A stretch of DNA of 64,000 bases from a virus. The DNA is taken from positions 42,180 through 106,179 of the IMG/VR virus record IMGVR_UViG_3300027714_000001; one strand, 5' to 3'. The translations under genes and the position numbers were made by a program. The notes below the pieces were generated by a model. The model searched no databases. It was not told the origin of the DNA and saw only the letters and a list, made by a program, of their open reading frames with translations. How positions within the stretch are numbered: position 1 is the first letter of the stretch; each line of letters starts with the position of its first letter. Positions 3,181 to 28,844 of this stretch are shown one piece after another.

Positions 3181-3626
3181 TGAAAAAATGGAGCATGATA
3201 AGCGAACAGACAGAATTAACAAATCCCGCACTAAAATGGTTTAAACAGTGGGCGTCTATGATTGGCGTATCCCATGACACAGTAAACCGTATACATTGCC
3301 ATTGCCCACCCGAGGATTTATTAGTTGGAGTCGAAGAAGTGTTAATTTTTAACTCTGAACTTGCTGAAACTGATAGACCAGCAGCACTACTCCAATCAAT
3401 AATACAAGCCGCTAAGTTTATGCTTTCAAACTCTGCCAATATTTTAACGGGTGATGCTTGGCTATTCGATGAAATGTATAAAACAAATTACCATAGAATT
3501 TGGTGTGAGAGGCACAATACAACGGAGTCTTTTGAGGCTGACTATCTAGCCGTATTTGGACAAGCAGCAGGGACAACAACACAAGAACAAGCAAGCAGAT
3601 TAATTAAACAGTACTTCGGAGGTTAG
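3180..3626 (+). CDS. Hypothetical protein, possible fibre partner
   Basis: 148 aa, mostly alpha-helical with several Trp and Cys residues (for example the HCHCPPE stretch near residue 40). The start overlaps the stop of the fibre-like gene, so it is probably co-translated. An accessory or assembly role for that fibre is inferred only from position. No domain is recognised. Confidence 0.6.
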   Translation: MKKWSMISEQTELTNPALKWFKQWASMIGVSHDTVNRIHCHCPPEDLLVGVEEVLIFNSELAETDRPAALLQSIIQAAKFMLSNSANILTGDAWLFDEMYKTNYHRIWCERHNTTESFEADYLAVFGQAAGTTTQEQASRLIKQYFGG

Positions 3627-3704
3627 ATGAGTTTAAATGATACAGAAGTTCAATTCCTTGTGAATGACTTAGGGGTTCCCCAAGGAAATACTGTATTATA
3701 TTAG
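3627..3704 (+). CDS. Very small ORF after fibre group (25 aa)
   Basis: ATG immediately follows the previous stop (TAG-ATG), with GGAGG upstream. The opening MSLNDTEVQFLV resembles the start of small proteins that follow fibre genes in other phages. It may be a truncated remnant. Low confidence as a functional gene. Confidence 0.4.
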   Translation: MSLNDTEVQFLVNDLGVPQGNTVLY

Positions 3705-3721
3705 TTAATTTAAAAAACTTG

Positions 3722-3750
3722 TTGCGTAGTAGCTTATTGTTTGCTATAAT
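3722..3750 (+). promoter_or_regulatory. Cassette promoter
   Basis: -35 TTGCGT (3722-3727), 17-bp spacer, -10 TATAAT (3745-3750), followed by leader hairpin TTTCT/AGAAA (3754-3770). Confidence 0.8.
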
Positions 3751-3783
3751 ATGTTTCTGGAATTGAGAAAAGGCAATTATATT

Positions 3784-4191
3784 ATGACTTCACAAGAACT
3801 ACAAGATTATCTAACTGAGGATGCAGCCGTGGGCGAACGATTTTATAGACAACAAGCAGAACGTGGTCGCAAAGGCTTACCTACAGGCTCAAGCACTTGT
3901 AGCGACCCTTATGCTACTTTTCCGAAAGGCGAAGGCAAAAAAACTGTTGCAAAAGCACCACGTAAATTAAAAGCAGATTATGTGTCAGAAATTGGCGTAG
4001 CTGGTATTGACAAGCTTACTTTAGTAGACTTGCAAGTGCTTGCTGCTCTAGTCACTGACATTAAACTTGTTATGCCTACTGGCAGACTCAAGTCGCCTTA
4101 CATCGACCAGTGCAGTTTGCTATGTCCCGAAGTTAAGTTCGACAAGCTTACTATTGCTACTCTCAAGTTACTTATAGGTAAGTATTCATGA
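3784..4191 (+). CDS. Hypothetical protein, paralogue of the 21343-21684 product
   Basis: 135 aa. The start is ATG 3784; the in-frame ATG at 3751 lies between the -10 box and the expected transcription start and cannot be used. The C-terminal half repeats the pattern of the protein at 21343-21684: two short Leu-rich helices (LTLVDLQVL and LTIATLKLLI) flanking a KSPYID motif and a PEVKFDKL turn. The N-terminal half is Gly/Lys-rich and possibly flexible. Function unknown. Confidence 0.65.
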   Translation: MTSQELQDYLTEDAAVGERFYRQQAERGRKGLPTGSSTCSDPYATFPKGEGKKTVAKAPRKLKADYVSEIGVAGIDKLTLVDLQVLAALVTDIKLVMPTGRLKSPYIDQCSLLCPEVKFDKLTIATLKLLIGKYS

Positions 4192-15336: not shown

Positions 15337-15411
15337 ACTCCTGTAGCTTAACGGCAAAGCGCAGGCTTCTAAACCCTAGAAATGGGAGTTCAACTCTCCC
15401 CAGGAGTACCA
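15337..15411 (+). tRNA. tRNA with CTA (amber suppressor) or TCT (Arg) anticodon
   Basis: Perfect acceptor ACTCCTG/CAGGAGT, D-stem GC/GC, T-arm GGGAG-TTCAACT-CTCCC. With standard arm lengths the anticodon loop is TTCTAAA, giving CTA, with a central AGG/CCT stem. The alternative register CTTCTAA gives TCT but leaves the stem largely unpaired. Confidence 0.6.
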
Positions 15412-18521: not shown

Positions 18522-18829
18522 TAATACTAGCGGTATTTATGTTAGGATGTACCAGCACACCACTTCCTCCTGTGGTAGTGTCAAAGGCACCTACTTATCA
18601 TCCAGGCTTTCCCGCACCGTACTCTATGTGTGACGTTACATGGAAAGTTTTGGAAGATGCAGGAAAACCTATAGTATCGTTATCTTATAACGATAACTTA
18701 ACAGCAGCTATATGTGATAGAGACAAGGATCGATATATACAACAGTTGCTACAACTAACATGTTACTATCGTTTAGATATTTCTGAACGAATTTGTACTA
18801 AGGAAACTAATGTCAACAAAAATAAATAA
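18512..18829 (+). CDS. Rz1: Outer-membrane spanin lipoprotein (Rz1-like)
   Basis: 105 aa from ATG 18512. Signal peptide MRIVILAVF with lipobox MLGC (Cys 13), then a Pro-rich stretch TPLPPVVV typical of Rz1. It is longer than many Rz1 proteins, with a Cys-containing C-terminal domain. It overlaps Rz by 10 bp and the ClpP-like gene by 20 bp. Confidence 0.7.
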   Translation: MRIVILAVFMLGCTSTPLPPVVVSKAPTYHPGFPAPYSMCDVTWKVLEDAGKPIVSLSYNDNLTAAICDRDKDRYIQQLLQLTCYYRLDISERICTKETNVNKNK

Positions 18830-19454
18830 AATTTACGCAAAGCCCGTAATAAGCAGTGTTTCATACATTTACATCTCAGGAGCAATAGGCGATCCCGGAG
18901 AATACATAGAAGAAATACAAACTCTCAAGGAAGCAGAGCAGGGAGACGAAGTAAACTTATTTATTAATACGGAGGGAGGAAGTGTACACACAGCAGTACA
19001 AATAATTACAGCAATAACTAACTGTAAGGCCAATGTGGTAGGACACATTGAAGGAATATGCCACTCAGCGGGTACGTATTTATTCTTATCTTGTGACGAG
19101 TGGGTAGTAAATCCACATTGCATGATGATGATACATAACTATAGCGGCGGATCTTATGGAAAAGGCGAGGAGCTAGTAGATGGGGTTCTAGGAACACATC
19201 TTTGGATAACAGAGATGATGCACAACATATATGAAACTTTCTTAACTCCAAAAGAGATTAAACAAGTAATAAAGGGTAAAGACATATACTTAACGTCTAG
19301 CCAAATACTAGAAAGACTTCCTAGACTACTGGAAGCAAGAGAGTTAGAAGATGAAATAGCCCAAGAAGAAGCTATGAAACTACTAGCTAAGCAATTAAAA
19401 CAAACATTAGCGGAAGACGATAATGAAGGAAAGAATCTTAGAGGAATTTCGTAA
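18810..19454 (+). CDS. ClpP-like serine protease
   Basis: 214 aa. ClpP/crotonase fold: LFINTEGGSV near residue 50, catalytic Ser 86 in HSAG, His 109 in MIHN and a likely Asp 158. Length matches ClpP subunits. In many phages ClpP-like enzymes process the prohead, but here the capsid gene has its own fused protease, so this copy may act on host or phage proteins. It overlaps Rz1 upstream and the RNase H-like gene downstream. Confidence 0.8.
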   Translation: MSTKINKIYAKPVISSVSYIYISGAIGDPGEYIEEIQTLKEAEQGDEVNLFINTEGGSVHTAVQIITAITNCKANVVGHIEGICHSAGTYLFLSCDEWVVNPHCMMMIHNYSGGSYGKGEELVDGVLGTHLWITEMMHNIYETFLTPKEIKQVIKGKDIYLTSSQILERLPRLLEARELEDEIAQEEAMKLLAKQLKQTLAEDDNEGKNLRGIS

Positions 19455-22499: not shown

Positions 22500-22748
22500 A
22501 TGTTATTTGTATGTCAAGTATTAATGATACTCTATATCTTGTTTACTACAGCAAAAATTATAGAGTACATTGTTGATCCCACAGATTTCTACGCAAAGCC
22601 TTATGATTCTCTAAGGTATTTTGTAAAAGTTTGTGTGCTAGGGTATATAGGTTGGGCTGTCGGGCTAGTTGTTCCCGTACTCCTTTTAGCCTTTATAAAC
22701 CTATTCATTAAAGAGCAACTACAAAACAGGTGTAAAAACGATGATTAA
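22500..22748 (+). CDS. Membrane protein (82 aa)
   Basis: Two hydrophobic helices at about residues 1-22 and 43-68. Its end overlaps the Prs-like gene by 8 bp. Function unknown. Confidence 0.6.
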   Translation: MLFVCQVLMILYILFTTAKIIEYIVDPTDFYAKPYDSLRYFVKVCVLGYIGWAVGLVVPVLLLAFINLFIKEQLQNRCKNDD

Positions 22749-23535
22749 CTTTAGAATTAATGGCTACCTATATACTCCTCAGTTCAGCACATTTCCTGGG
22801 GGCGAAGAACACGTTAATATTCGTACTAAGAACAGACTACCTGTGTGCCCTGATTGGAATGTTATCATAAAAGCGAAGCTTAGGTCTAGCTCTGACATTA
22901 TGAGATTGCTTTTGGTAGTAGATGCCTTACGCAATCAACAAGGCCACACAGTAGAACATATAGACCTGCACATGCCTTACGTACCCTACGCACGTCAAGA
23001 CAGAATCTGTAAAGAAGGGGAATCGTTCTCTCTAAAAGTATTTGCTGATTTAATCAACGACTTACAGTTTGATAATGTTTACGTAGAAGATGCTCACAGT
23101 AATGTAGCTTTAGATTTGTTAGAGAACTGCGTTAACCTTACACAAGTAGGATTACTTAGCACCACAGACTTGGGAGACACTATACAGAATGCGGACTACA
23201 TAGTTGCACCAGATGCGGGGGCAATGAAGAAAGCAGAGGCACTAGGAAAGTTCTACCAGAAGCCTGTACTGCAATGTGCTAAGTTTAGAGTAAGCAGAGA
23301 TGTTATTAGGGTAGACTTGCTTAACGCACCAGCAGATATAAAAGATTCTGTGTTAGTAGTTGTTGACGACATATGTGACGGAGGAGGAACTTTTAACGCA
23401 CTAGCATTGTCTCCGGAAATAGCAGAGGCCAAGGAGCTACACTTAATTGTAACACACGGCATCTTTTCTAAAGGCAAAGACGAGTTACTTTGGAAGTACG
23501 AAACAGTGGAGGCAGTAAATGACTGGACTAAATAA
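22741..23535 (+). CDS. prs: Ribose-phosphate pyrophosphokinase-like enzyme
   Basis: 264 aa. Prs fold: PYVPYARQDR near residue 80, DAHS near 118, APDAGAMKKA near 158 and the PRPP-binding loop VVDDICDGGGTF near 208. Classical role: ATP plus ribose 5-phosphate to PRPP. It is shorter than cellular Prs (about 315 aa). Next to a Nampt-like gene it would supply PRPP for NAD+ salvage. Alternatively, it may be the related ADP-ribose pyrophosphate synthetase of the phage NARP1 pathway. Confidence 0.85.
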   Translation: MINFRINGYLYTPQFSTFPGGEEHVNIRTKNRLPVCPDWNVIIKAKLRSSSDIMRLLLVVDALRNQQGHTVEHIDLHMPYVPYARQDRICKEGESFSLKVFADLINDLQFDNVYVEDAHSNVALDLLENCVNLTQVGLLSTTDLGDTIQNADYIVAPDAGAMKKAEALGKFYQKPVLQCAKFRVSRDVIRVDLLNAPADIKDSVLVVVDDICDGGGTFNALALSPEIAEAKELHLIVTHGIFSKGKDELLWKYETVEAVNDWTK

Positions 23536-23947
23536 TTATACAAACAGGGACGGTGTTCTAAATCGTCTAAAGAGAGAATACCTAGAACATGGAAAGATTA
23601 TCATAGCATTTGACTTTGATAATACTATATACGACTATCACAACCATGACCTAGACTTGGAAGCTACAATTTGTGCATTACGTAAAGCATACAAACTAGG
23701 TATGGAGCTGTTTTGCTTTACCGCTAACTCTAACCATCAGTTAATTACAGATGTGGTAGAGCACTTGTTAGGGATTCCTTACCAAGACCAAAAGATTAAT
23801 TGTTGTAGCTTAGATCATTTGTTTAAAGGCAGAAAGCCTTTCTACTCAATATTATTAGACGACAGAGCAGGTCTTGACTCAACCTTAAGAACTTTACACC
23901 AATTTATGTTTTTTGTTGAAGAAACATCTAGACAAAACGCCCAATAA
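23519..23947 (+). CDS. HAD-superfamily phosphatase
   Basis: 142 aa. HAD motif I FDFDNTIYD near residue 30, motif II FTAN near 68, motif IV LLDDRAGL near 119. Small member without a large cap domain. Sits between the Prs-like and Nampt-like genes, overlapping the former by 17 bp, so a role in nucleotide or NAD metabolism is likely but its substrate is unknown. Confidence 0.75.
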   Translation: MTGLNNYTNRDGVLNRLKREYLEHGKIIIAFDFDNTIYDYHNHDLDLEATICALRKAYKLGMELFCFTANSNHQLITDVVEHLLGIPYQDQKINCCSLDHLFKGRKPFYSILLDDRAGLDSTLRTLHQFMFFVEETSRQNAQ

Positions 23948-23957
23948 TCGGTATAAT
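23929..23957 (+). promoter_or_regulatory. Cassette promoter inside gene end
   Basis: -35 TAGACA (23929-23934) in the HAD gene end, stop in spacer, -10 TATAAT (23952-23957), leader TTTAGAAATTAACAAAAGG. Confidence 0.75.
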
Positions 23958-23987
23958 AGCTTTAGAAATTAACAAAAGGAACAACCC

Positions 23988-25763
23988 ATGAATAGCACAA
24001 TTAACGCAGTAGACTTCTATAAAACAGGCCACGGTCCACAGTACCCCTCTGGTACTGAGTATGTATATTCTAACCTAACCCCCCGATCAGTAAAATACGC
24101 GTCTACCGACCGCATTACAGTGTTTGGCATTCAGTCATTCATTGCAAAACGCCTTATCAAAGAATTTAACGACACATTCTTTAATCAACCATTAAATACA
24201 GTAATACAAAAGTATCAGCGCAGAATGGATAATGCCCTAGGTAAAGGCACAGTTACAACTAAACATTTAAAAGACCTACATAATTTAGGTTTCCTACCTA
24301 TGCACATTAAAGCATTACCTGAAGGTGTGTCTGTAAAGCCACTAATTCCTGTAATGACAATGATCAACACCTTACCAGAGTTTTTCTGGCTAACTAACTA
24401 CCTTGAGACAGTTTGTAGCTGCGATGTTTGGCAACCAATGACCAATATGTCTGTAGCTAGAGAGTATTTCTCCTTACTTACAGGTTTTGCAGAAGATACT
24501 GGTGTAGACCCTGAATTTGTCAAAGTACAGGCACATGATTTCTCAATGCGTGGAATGGCAGGAGTAGAAGCAGCAGCGGCCTCTGGAGCGGCTCATTTAG
24601 CAGCGGGTTTTACAGGAACTGACTGTGTTCCTGCGATTGACTACTTAGAGGATTGGTATTTCGCTGATTCGGACAAAGAAATGGTAGGATGCTCCGTTCC
24701 TGCTACAGAACACAGCGTTATGTGTATGGGAACAAAAGAAGACGAGCAAGCTACGTTTGAACGTATCTTAGACCTATATCCTCAAGGTATTAAGTCCATC
24801 GTGTCAGATACTTGGAACTTGTGGCAGGTCATTACAGAATATGCACCAAATCTTAGAGATAAGATTAACGCCGCAAAAGATATTATGAGTTACGAAGCTT
24901 ACGATTACCAAGAACCTTGTGCAGGTGAGCTACAGTTAGCGTACCAGAAGGGTTTTAAAGTTGTGAAAGTAGCAGACAAGGAATACCGCGCAATAAATAC
25001 TGATTTGCAGGGTACCGTATTTTTAGGTACAGAAATAGAAGCACCTGTGCTGATAGTCCCTGGCAAGACGGTTTTCCGTCCAGACTCGGGCTGCCCTGTT
25101 AAGATTCTTACGGGCTACAAGGCACTAACTAAATATGTTTTTGACAGCGTAGAAGAAGCAATAAGCCACGCTTGCGATTACCCTCAAGATACTTATGATT
25201 TTGAAGTATTTGAAGTAGTAGGAAAAGTTTTTGTTAGACTAAGTGACTATAAACTGGTAAGCGAGCACGAAGTTAAAGGTGTTGTAGAGTTACTGTGGGA
25301 ACAATTTCCTGGACTAGTAAACGCCAAGGGCTATAAAGAGCTAACTAAAGTAGGAGCAATCTATGGAGATTCTATCACACTAGAGCGTGCAGAGCAGATT
25401 ATGCAACGTCTTAAAGATAAAGGTTTTGCTAGCAGCAACGTTGTATTAGGTATTGGTTCGTTTACATACCAATATAACACTCGTGACACCTACGGTATGG
25501 CTGTTAAAGCTACGTGGGGTATGGTAGACGGCGTTCCTAGAGAAATTTTTAAAGACCCTATTACAGACGACGGAACAAAGAAGTCTGCAACTGGGTTGCT
25601 GCGTGTAGAGCTAGAACGTGCAGGCAACAAATTAGTTCCTGAGTATGTTTTATACGACAGACAAACTAAGTATGAAGAAGGCTGCGGAGAGCTAAGAACA
25701 GTATTCTTAGACGGCATTCACATGAATCAACAAACATTAGAAGAAATTAGAGGAACAAGATAA
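23988..25763 (+). CDS. nadV: Nicotinamide phosphoribosyltransferase-like enzyme
   Basis: 591 aa. Nampt/NadV features: N-terminal DFYKTGHGPQYP and YSNLTPRS, FSMRGMAG in the middle, the catalytic-His motif VPATEHSV near residue 243 and FRPDSGCPVKI near 363. Joins nicotinamide to PRPP giving NMN. It is longer than the usual 470-500 aa, with extra sequence in the C-terminal half. It has its own promoter after the Prs-like/HAD pair. If the upstream enzyme makes ADPR-PP, this one would be a Namat of the NARP1 route. Confidence 0.88.
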   Translation: MNSTINAVDFYKTGHGPQYPSGTEYVYSNLTPRSVKYASTDRITVFGIQSFIAKRLIKEFNDTFFNQPLNTVIQKYQRRMDNALGKGTVTTKHLKDLHNLGFLPMHIKALPEGVSVKPLIPVMTMINTLPEFFWLTNYLETVCSCDVWQPMTNMSVAREYFSLLTGFAEDTGVDPEFVKVQAHDFSMRGMAGVEAAAASGAAHLAAGFTGTDCVPAIDYLEDWYFADSDKEMVGCSVPATEHSVMCMGTKEDEQATFERILDLYPQGIKSIVSDTWNLWQVITEYAPNLRDKINAAKDIMSYEAYDYQEPCAGELQLAYQKGFKVVKVADKEYRAINTDLQGTVFLGTEIEAPVLIVPGKTVFRPDSGCPVKILTGYKALTKYVFDSVEEAISHACDYPQDTYDFEVFEVVGKVFVRLSDYKLVSEHEVKGVVELLWEQFPGLVNAKGYKELTKVGAIYGDSITLERAEQIMQRLKDKGFASSNVVLGIGSFTYQYNTRDTYGMAVKATWGMVDGVPREIFKDPITDDGTKKSATGLLRVELERAGNKLVPEYVLYDRQTKYEEGCGELRTVFLDGIHMNQQTLEEIRGTR

Positions 25764-26064: not shown

Positions 26065-26093
26065 TGGACACATTGCTCATTGTTTGCTATAAT
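26065..26093 (+). promoter_or_regulatory. Cassette promoter
   Basis: -35 TGGACA, 17-bp spacer, -10 TATAAT (26088-26093), leader TTTCAGAAATTAAGAAAAG. Confidence 0.75.
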
Positions 26094-28307: not shown

Positions 28308-28474
28308 TGAAAGAACTACAAGGAACTCCAAACTATATAGAAGTTCCTTTCACCGTAGGTGATCCCTCCTTCTACGCAAGTAGACACGGTTTTACCACAT
28401 ATAAGTATAACGAGAGATACTTCCGCAGCAATATAGAAATTACAGAGGATGAAGCTAATGATAACACCCAGTAA
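28307..28474 (+). CDS. Hypothetical protein (55 aa)
   Basis: Starts at ATG 28307 overlapping the upstream stop (TAATG). Polar with several aromatic residues. Overlaps the phosphatase-like gene by 26 bp. Function unknown. Confidence 0.55.
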   Translation: MKELQGTPNYIEVPFTVGDPSFYASRHGFTTYKYNERYFRSNIEITEDEANDNTQ

Positions 28475-28844
28475 CAGAAACCAGATGGGCAACGCAATGA
28501 ACCCCTACCAAGGTAAGACAAAAAGAATCCTGTGTGTATGTAGCGCAGGATTACTCCGCAGCCCCACAATCGCTAAGTATCTCACAGGTAAAGGCTTTAA
28601 CACGCGCGCCTGTGGTACATCACAAGACTTCGCGCTGATTCCTATTAGCCAAGCATTAGTTATGTGGGCTGACGAGATTCACGTAGTAAAAGAACAAGAG
28701 CATGTTATATTAGATATTCTAATAGCTGGTAATCTTCGCCCTAAAGTTGTTGTACTAGACATTCCTGACAATTATGGTACATTTGACCCAGAGCTTACAT
28801 TAATAATTAAAGATTTCTACGAACGTTTTGCGGAGTACAGCTAA
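28449..28844 (+). CDS. Low-molecular-weight tyrosine phosphatase-like protein
   Basis: 131 aa. P-loop CSAGLLRS (Cys 31 to Arg 37, the C-x5-R phosphatase loop) after the strand RILCVC, and DIPDNY near residue 104 with a possible general-acid Asp 107. Related phage proteins are annotated as tyrosine phosphatases. It may dephosphorylate host proteins or arsenate-like substrates; activity untested. Confidence 0.7.
   Translation: MKLMITPSNRNQMGNAMNPYQGKTKRILCVCSAGLLRSPTIAKYLTGKGFNTRACGTSQDFALIPISQALVMWADEIHVVKEQEHVILDILIAGNLRPKVVVLDIPDNYGTFDPELTLIIKDFYERFAEYS

Follow-up and report, generated by a model that had tools for sequence, protein, structure and literature searches.

Does the segment at 22741-25763 of this window encode NARP1, which would rebuild nicotinamide adenine dinucleotide (NAD+) from ADP-ribose (ADPR), or canonical salvage starting from ribose 5-phosphate, and what does the phosphatase gene lying between its two synthesis genes contribute? 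The window is the 64-kb stretch that forms the last part of a 106,179-base virus record (IMGVR_UViG_3300027714_000001), the remainder of which was also examined, in pieces. Open reading frame (ORF) calling filled 22741-25763 exactly with three ORFs on the + strand, the same adjacent Prs-like, HAD and Nampt-like trio that had been described in an earlier reading of the sequence (the original prediction):

22741..23535, + strand: Adps (Prs homologue), 264 amino acids (aa); predicted to convert ADPR to ADPR-pyrophosphate (ADPR-PP)
23519..23947, + strand: HAD phosphatase, capless (C0), 142 aa; likely third NARP1 component
23988..25763, + strand: Namat (Nampt homologue), nicotinamide ADP-ribose transferase, 591 aa; predicted to convert ADPR-PP and nicotinamide (NAM) to NAD+

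The HAD gene starts inside the 3' end of the Adps gene, with a 17-nucleotide (nt) overlap, and the Adps gene ends 452 nt upstream of the Namat gene.

Adps and Namat very probably constitute a phage NARP1 pair, a further example of a pathway already known, because the sequence comparisons of Namat with Nampt/NadV and of Adps with Prs all favored NARP1 and no gene for nicotinamide mononucleotide (NMN) adenylyltransferase (NMNAT) was found in the record. In such a pathway, host NADase defenses would leave ADPR, Adps would use ATP to pyrophosphorylate it to ADPR-PP, and Namat would couple ADPR-PP with NAM to give NAD+ in a single step, so that the phage would not require an NMNAT. The original prediction had offered NARP1 as one possibility, and the clamp residues, the Adps loop, the tree and the failure to find an NMNAT now support it, all at the level of sequence, from which we also infer the enzymatic activities and the anti-defense effect. 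As far as sequence can be read for it, every feature of NARP1 membership is present at the locus.

The Nampt-like protein matched NAPRTase in Pfam (3e-31) and PHROG 448 (5e-169). Its best matches in the PDB, both by sequence (phmmer, 432 bits) and by fold (Foldseek E 1e-51, root mean square deviation 2.2), were the structures of SPbetaL1 Namat (9W5X/9W5W), to which it is 49.5% identical. Those crystal structures provide a residue-level list of NAD+ contacts (PMC12774641), and 18 of the 20 contacting residues were kept in the alignment; the two changes, Arg40 to Lys (with Tyr next) and Ala362 to Ser, are both common among phage Namats. The NAM/ribose/phosphate site was also kept (D9, Y11, F185, S186, R188, D212, A239, R364, D366, G460, D461, G490, S491, R499, D500 and the active-site His, H242). 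Namat is known to clamp the adenine of ADPR-PP by means of two elements: a helix of the motif GSX(phi)X(phi)X(phi)TRD whose third and seventh residues are aromatic, and a loop with either Arg or a Lys/Tyr that precedes a stacking residue, the Lys form being Bas63-type (PMC12774641). Both elements were found in the window protein, with F and Y at positions 3 and 7 of the helix and K36-Y37 in the loop:

25455..25487, + strand: selectivity-clamp helix GSFTYQYNTRD, Namat residues 490-500; identical to SPbetaL1 and fitting the motif of PMC12774641
24084..24098, + strand: selectivity-clamp loop RSVKY, residues 33-37; K36-Y37 at the SPbetaL1 Arg40 position

Throughout the compared Namat set, position 3 of the motif is aromatic; at position 7, Met, His or Cys is found occasionally.

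The clamp distinguishes enzymes that overall similarity does not. Haemophilus ducreyi NadV (HdNadV), which was crystallized with NMN (PDB 9KE8), has the same fold as the window protein, is 47.5% identical to it over the aligned part, and shares 59.8% identity with SPbetaL1 Namat. Since HdNadV is almost as close to the window protein as SPbetaL1 Namat is, overall identity or tree position alone was rejected as evidence for a Namat. The corresponding HdNadV motif, GAQTYQRNTRD, has neither clamp aromatic, and a search of its 5.6-kb plasmid pNAD1 for an Adps gene found none. Clamp aromatics were likewise absent from the Nampts of phages PG07 and CBB, which adjoin adenylyltransferase genes, and from those of PVA8 and KLB3. 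Across the Nampt/NadV controls the two clamp sites read G/Q, G/H, L/E, G/E or Q/R, against F and Y in the window protein, which does not have the canonical clamp helix devoid of adenine-stacking residues. In a maximum-likelihood tree of 79 sequences (75 Namats and four phage Nampts, with HdNadV left out), the window protein grouped with the other 74 Namats, SPbetaL1 Namat among them, and the branch dividing them from the four phage Nampts had support of 100/99.

The Prs-like protein matched Pribosyltran_N in Pfam (4.5e-9) and the ribose-phosphate pyrophosphokinase family of PHROG (5e-71). Like other Adps, it is a Prs homologue encoded next to Namat; of the 61 dereplicated Namat loci, 60 have an Adps. 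It is 24% identical to Escherichia coli Prs, whereas its closest Adps-like counterparts adjoining Namat in phages reach 40-42%. In Prs, the loop DDMIDTGGT contacts the ribose 5-phosphate group; at its place the phosphoribosyl pyrophosphate (PRPP) loop of the window protein reads DDICDGGGTF, that is, DGGGT and not the canonical DDxxDT[GA]GT. The Prs form DT[GA]GT was absent from 168 of 172 Adps-like proteins and present in the other four; this loop distinction was derived in the present analysis and not taken from the literature. The altered loop would suit a substrate with AMP attached to the phosphate; to our knowledge, there is no structure of an Adps. Together, the clamp aromatics and the Adps loop make a sequence test that tells NARP1 from NadV where overall identity cannot.

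No NMNAT nearby had been noted originally, and a search of the whole record found none either: PF01467 had no match at E<=1 across the 106,179-base record, which may be incomplete, and all 14 control genomes were positive. As the record carries no completeness estimate, an NMNAT could lie in genome sequence that it does not include. Profile and sequence searches of the same record for NadR, NadM, PncA, NadE, PnuC, macro-domain and Nudix (PF00293) proteins were also empty.

In canonical salvage, a short Prs would make PRPP from ribose 5-phosphate, NadV would make NMN, and host NadD, NadR or NadM would finish NAD+. The families are homologous, database names read Prs and NadV-type, hosts supply NMNAT, and the window protein is nearly as similar to HdNadV as to SPbetaL1 Namat. 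Nevertheless, we consider this route very unlikely, since the window protein has both adenine-stacking aromatics, which are absent from every Nampt/NadV control examined, HdNadV included, its Prs-like partner has the Adps-type loop, and no phage NMNAT was found in the possibly incomplete record. Two observations weigh against a strict NARP1 assignment. SPbetaL1 Namat forms NMN from PRPP in vitro (PMC12774641), so by analogy the window Namat likely has some NadV-like activity, and a host could complete the NMN route. An Acinetobacter-type operon joins a clamp-positive enzyme to a NadM-type NMNAT/Nudix gene, so the clamp is compatible with an NMN route. At locus L007 (3084-6301, labeled Acinetobacter phage MD-2021a), genes for a Prs-like protein, a clamp-positive NadV and NadM/Nudix stand in a row; the surroundings are bacterial genes, probably those of a host contig, and the "NadV" of Acinetobacter is possibly a Namat. 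With NARP1 as the preferred assignment, a T5-like phage is added, on sequence grounds, to the phages able to undo NAD+ depletion.

The window Namat is long, with two insertions:

24882..25061, + strand: Namat insertion 1, about residues 299-358; unique to the window protein among those aligned
25116..25271, + strand: Namat insertion 2, about residues 377-428; a site of insertions in several phage Namats

Insertion 1 was modeled with low confidence (pLDDT under 50 at 301-310 and 339-354), and insertion 2 as a strand-helix-hairpin. A sequence duplication linking the two found no support (363 of 500 shuffles were equally good). Lengths here lay between about 490 and 597 aa for full-length Namats and between about 264 and 304 aa for Adps; these sizes are not diagnostic, enzyme length was rejected as evidence, and the earlier remark that size fits either reading holds. 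Several other Namats were unusual. At six loci (L066, L068, L076, L085, L095 and L098) the clamp helix of Namat contains seven extra residues (GSFTYQGAVTPDAIITRD and similar). The Namat of ICP1 2017_Dha_W (L013, 3103-4422) is annotated at 439 aa without its N-terminus; in place of the phosphate-binding Arg399 it has Cys (YTYQYVTCD), and it may be degenerate in that isolate. In Lak-A1 (L025, 3932-6892), Namat is broken at the clamp-helix motif by ~1.3 kb with an endonuclease-like ORF, probably an intron, and a HAD relative lies ~100 kb away from it.

The gene between Adps and Namat is probably a conserved accessory of the NARP1 module, its third component, judging from sequence features and gene linkage. 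The protein matched Pfam Hydrolase (0.003) and PHROG 1238 (7e-19), and it has the DxDxT, T/S, K and DD motifs and the Rossmann-like fold of the HAD superfamily, with D32xD34xT36, T68, K106 and D115 conserved across 38 relatives, to which it is 24-35% identical. Its AlphaFold2 model (pLDDT 90) is a capless (C0) HAD. The nearest folds, the HAD BT_0820 (Z 8.3) and the 3' phosphatase of T4 Pnkp (Z 7.6), are generic relatives; matches to characterized HAD families were weak in both family and fold, and the fold comparison indicated no substrate.

The original prediction had left the HAD as a bystander, a view contradicted by loci selected through the HAD itself, which mostly carry Adps or Namat in both phages and bacteria. 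A search of 50,697 phage records with the window HAD matched 28. All six annotated phages examined (cr126_1, DAC15, cr111_1, VPT02, PhAER-3 and Phass-1) have the HAD in an Adps/Namat cassette, and in Lak-B2 a relative adjoins Adps. Among IMG/VR loci picked by the HAD alone, 62 of 79 carried Adps or Namat and 57 carried both; after removal of near-copies, 20 of 32 were directly adjacent, eight had these genes elsewhere in the locus and four had neither. Scans of IMG/VR with single window proteins gave few relatives (two Namat, no Adps, one doubtful HAD), and relatives were recovered with alignment queries instead. In bacterial genomes, Adps or Namat lay within the 6-kb flanks of 50 of 55 strong HAD hits versus two of 23 weak ones. 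When loci were selected by Namat, 12 of the 61 dereplicated cassettes contained a HAD relative, a count possibly biased by the use of members beside Namat to build the HAD profiles; the choice of HAD-selected loci is free of that bias except through the seed alignment. The HAD-bearing Namat loci showed three gene orders (Adps-HAD-Namat, HAD-Namat-Adps and Namat-HAD-Adps), and HAD presence or absence required seven changes on the Namat tree, at least six of them forced by well-supported branches. A Mu-like Porphyromonas phage with a distant HAD relative (E 5e-5) has no NAD genes, so the NAD linkage belongs to this HAD subfamily.

Two findings count against a dedicated NARP1 role for the HAD. 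The cassettes of 49 of the 61 Namat loci lack it, so it is not essential to NARP1. In the 735-kb phage LR756501 (L110, 4794-8111), the HAD precedes PnuC, NadR and a gene of the isochorismatase family with no Adps or Namat nearby, which speaks more for a general role in NAD metabolism than for one specific to ADPR.

The strong bacterial HAD loci came mostly from Paenibacillaceae and Bacteroidota, usually with a clamp-positive Namat. Apparent NMNAT hits beside bacterial NARP1 were rejected, the extra adjoining gene being NrtR-type, with a Nudix domain and an NrtR winged helix, in all five checked; the NrtR family senses ADPR (PMC9503650). On the Paenibacillus psychroresistens chromosome, an NrtR-type gene, HAD, Adps, Namat, PnuC and NadR form one cluster (L198, 5214-10405). 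The conserved HAD points to a third activity common to phages and bacteria.

A DarG-like macro-domain gene occupied the HAD slot in six of the 61 Namat-selected cassettes. Strict exclusion between the two was rejected: none of the 61 has both, but the HAD-selected locus L193 does, so their alternation is a tendency only. The macro gene was seen between Adps and Namat (L009 at 3417-3893, L031, L048, L074, L075, L101), 3' of Namat (L019, L072, L073, L082) and ~2 kb downstream of Namat (L027-L029, L032 and others). In another phage with NARP1, RyDEP turns cyclic ADPR into ADPR for Adps (PMC13232231). As the macro gene shares the slot and RyDEP feeds ADPR to Adps, the slot may, by analogy, hold enzymes that free ADPR from its derivatives.

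What the HAD acts on can be proposed only tentatively: the leading candidate is a phosphorylated ADPR species, such as ADPR-1''-phosphate or 2'-phospho-ADPR, whose dephosphorylation would return ADPR to Adps. ADPR-1''-phosphate would arise from NAD+ phosphorolysis or from decay of ADPR-PP; RES-family enzymes convert NAD+ to it (PMC9503650), and ADPR-PP could break down to it as PRPP does. A broader proposal, possible but doubtful, is that NARP1 is commonly a three-enzyme system in which the HAD returns phosphorylated ADPR to ADPR, and that the HAD has long belonged to the NrtR-linked NARP1 operons of bacteria. If that were true, NAD+ rebuilding would reach defenses that are irreversible for the two-enzyme version (e.g., RES-type NAD+ phosphorylases), and the pathway would be protected from its own unstable intermediate. 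This HAD is not mentioned in the text of PMC12774641 or PMC9503650, the two papers compared (the original NARP1 description lay outside that comparison), and its recognition as an overlooked part of NARP1 is probably new. Its substrate would reveal which species, of phosphorylated ADPR or of NADP, are important while a defense depletes NAD+, and would help explain why bacterial NARP1 stands beside an ADPR-sensing regulator.

That the HAD is an NADP(H) phosphatase (or 2'-phosphatase), turning NADP(H) into NAD(H) and feeding the NAD pool on any route, is rather unlikely, yet this reading accommodates several settings. The HAD adjoins PnuC and NadR in the 735-kb phage, lies in the Paenibacillus cluster with both, and also occurs in cassettes with PncA and NadE, NAD+ being the product common to all of them; its association with these gene sets argues for a general NAD enzyme. 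Against this, no close structural relative has such activity, the best folds being generic C0 HADs and T4 Pnkp. The cassettes in question combine a PncA-type nicotinamidase, Adps, Namat, mostly the HAD, and NadE (Phass-1, L114, 1890-6328; L129, L166, L176, L184, L143; bacterial loci L227 and L252). They possibly encode a deamido NARP1 without NMNAT, in which ADPR-PP and nicotinic acid would give nicotinic acid adenine dinucleotide and then NAD+.

We regard as quite improbable an RNA-end phosphatase that belongs to an RNA-repair set and merely neighbors NAD genes. BT_0820 and the T4 Pnkp 3' phosphatase are its nearest folds, RNA ligases are often nearby in phages, and a HAD with sirtuins in RNA repair has been described (PMC9503650); however, the fold Z values are within the range of a merely common arrangement, the same HAD family occurs with Adps/Namat and NrtR regulators on bacterial chromosomes, and it stays with Adps/Namat through reshuffled gene orders. 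That the HAD is a chance hitch-hiker, as its lack in most Namat cassettes and its low identity to relatives might suggest, is scarcely credible, the linkage counts largely refuting it, since HAD-only searches of three collections returned Adps/Namat neighborhoods.

The window phage is classed as a T5-like siphophage without a close sequenced relative, from its 20 tRNA genes and its terminase, portal, major tail and tape-measure genes, the tape measure being most similar to those of T5-like phages, e.g., DT571/2. One regulatory feature was recorded at the cassette:

23929..23957, + strand: sigma-70-like promoter, 5' of Namat; TAGACA-N17-TATAAT, 11/12 consensus

Promoter-like sites in the region were no more numerous than in shuffled sequence, so this site is a consensus match only. 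A second promoter-like site, TGGACA-17-TATAAT, was seen at 26065-26093, ahead of the ORF at 26080; the two sites resemble each other, with a similar leader sequence after both. Elsewhere in the window, a tRNA with anticodon CTA (15337-15411; tRNA-Pyl according to ARAGORN) among the 20 is a possible amber suppressor, and a ClpP-like protease gene (18810-19454; PHROG ATP-dependent protease, 3e-62) lies outside the head-gene cluster. A 131-aa protein (28449-28844) has a CxxxxxRS motif (CSAGLLRS), as in low-molecular-weight phosphatases; Pfam and PHROG searches with it gave no match, and a similar gene occurs near a HAD relative (L148, 680-1117).

Compared with known systems, the window locus is most readily set beside SPbetaL1 NARP1 (PMC12774641; PDB 9W5W/9W5X), with which it shares juxtaposed Adps and Namat genes, the identical clamp helix and 18 of 20 NAD+ contacts. 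It differs in its longer Namat (591 versus about 490 aa, with two insertions), in its clamp loop, where Lys-Tyr replaces Arg, and in the HAD between Adps and Namat. Its clamp loop resembles that of Bas63 NARP1, compared by description only, which has Lys at position 3 and a stacking residue next (PMC12774641). The Namat of felixounavirus wV8 is 41% identical, and the wV8 cassette has no HAD. HdNadV (PDB 9KE8/9KEO, pNAD1) has the same fold but neither the clamp aromatics nor an Adps partner. Chromosomal NARP1 is known from Paenibacillus foliorum (PMC12774641), and Paenibacillus/Cohnella relatives combine Adps and a clamp-positive Namat with a HAD of the family seen in the window, next to an NrtR regulator that the phage lacks. 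The Vibrio phages Cody and VPT02 (Demerecviridae) are likewise T5-type with an Adps-X-Namat arrangement, X being a HAD in VPT02, as in the window, and a macro-domain protein in Cody. Mycobacteriophage DyoEdafos combines RyDEP with NARP1 (PMC13232231) and thus also has an accessory enzyme able to feed ADPR to Adps/Namat; RyDEP is a cyclic ADPR glycosidase, whereas the window phage has a HAD phosphatase instead.

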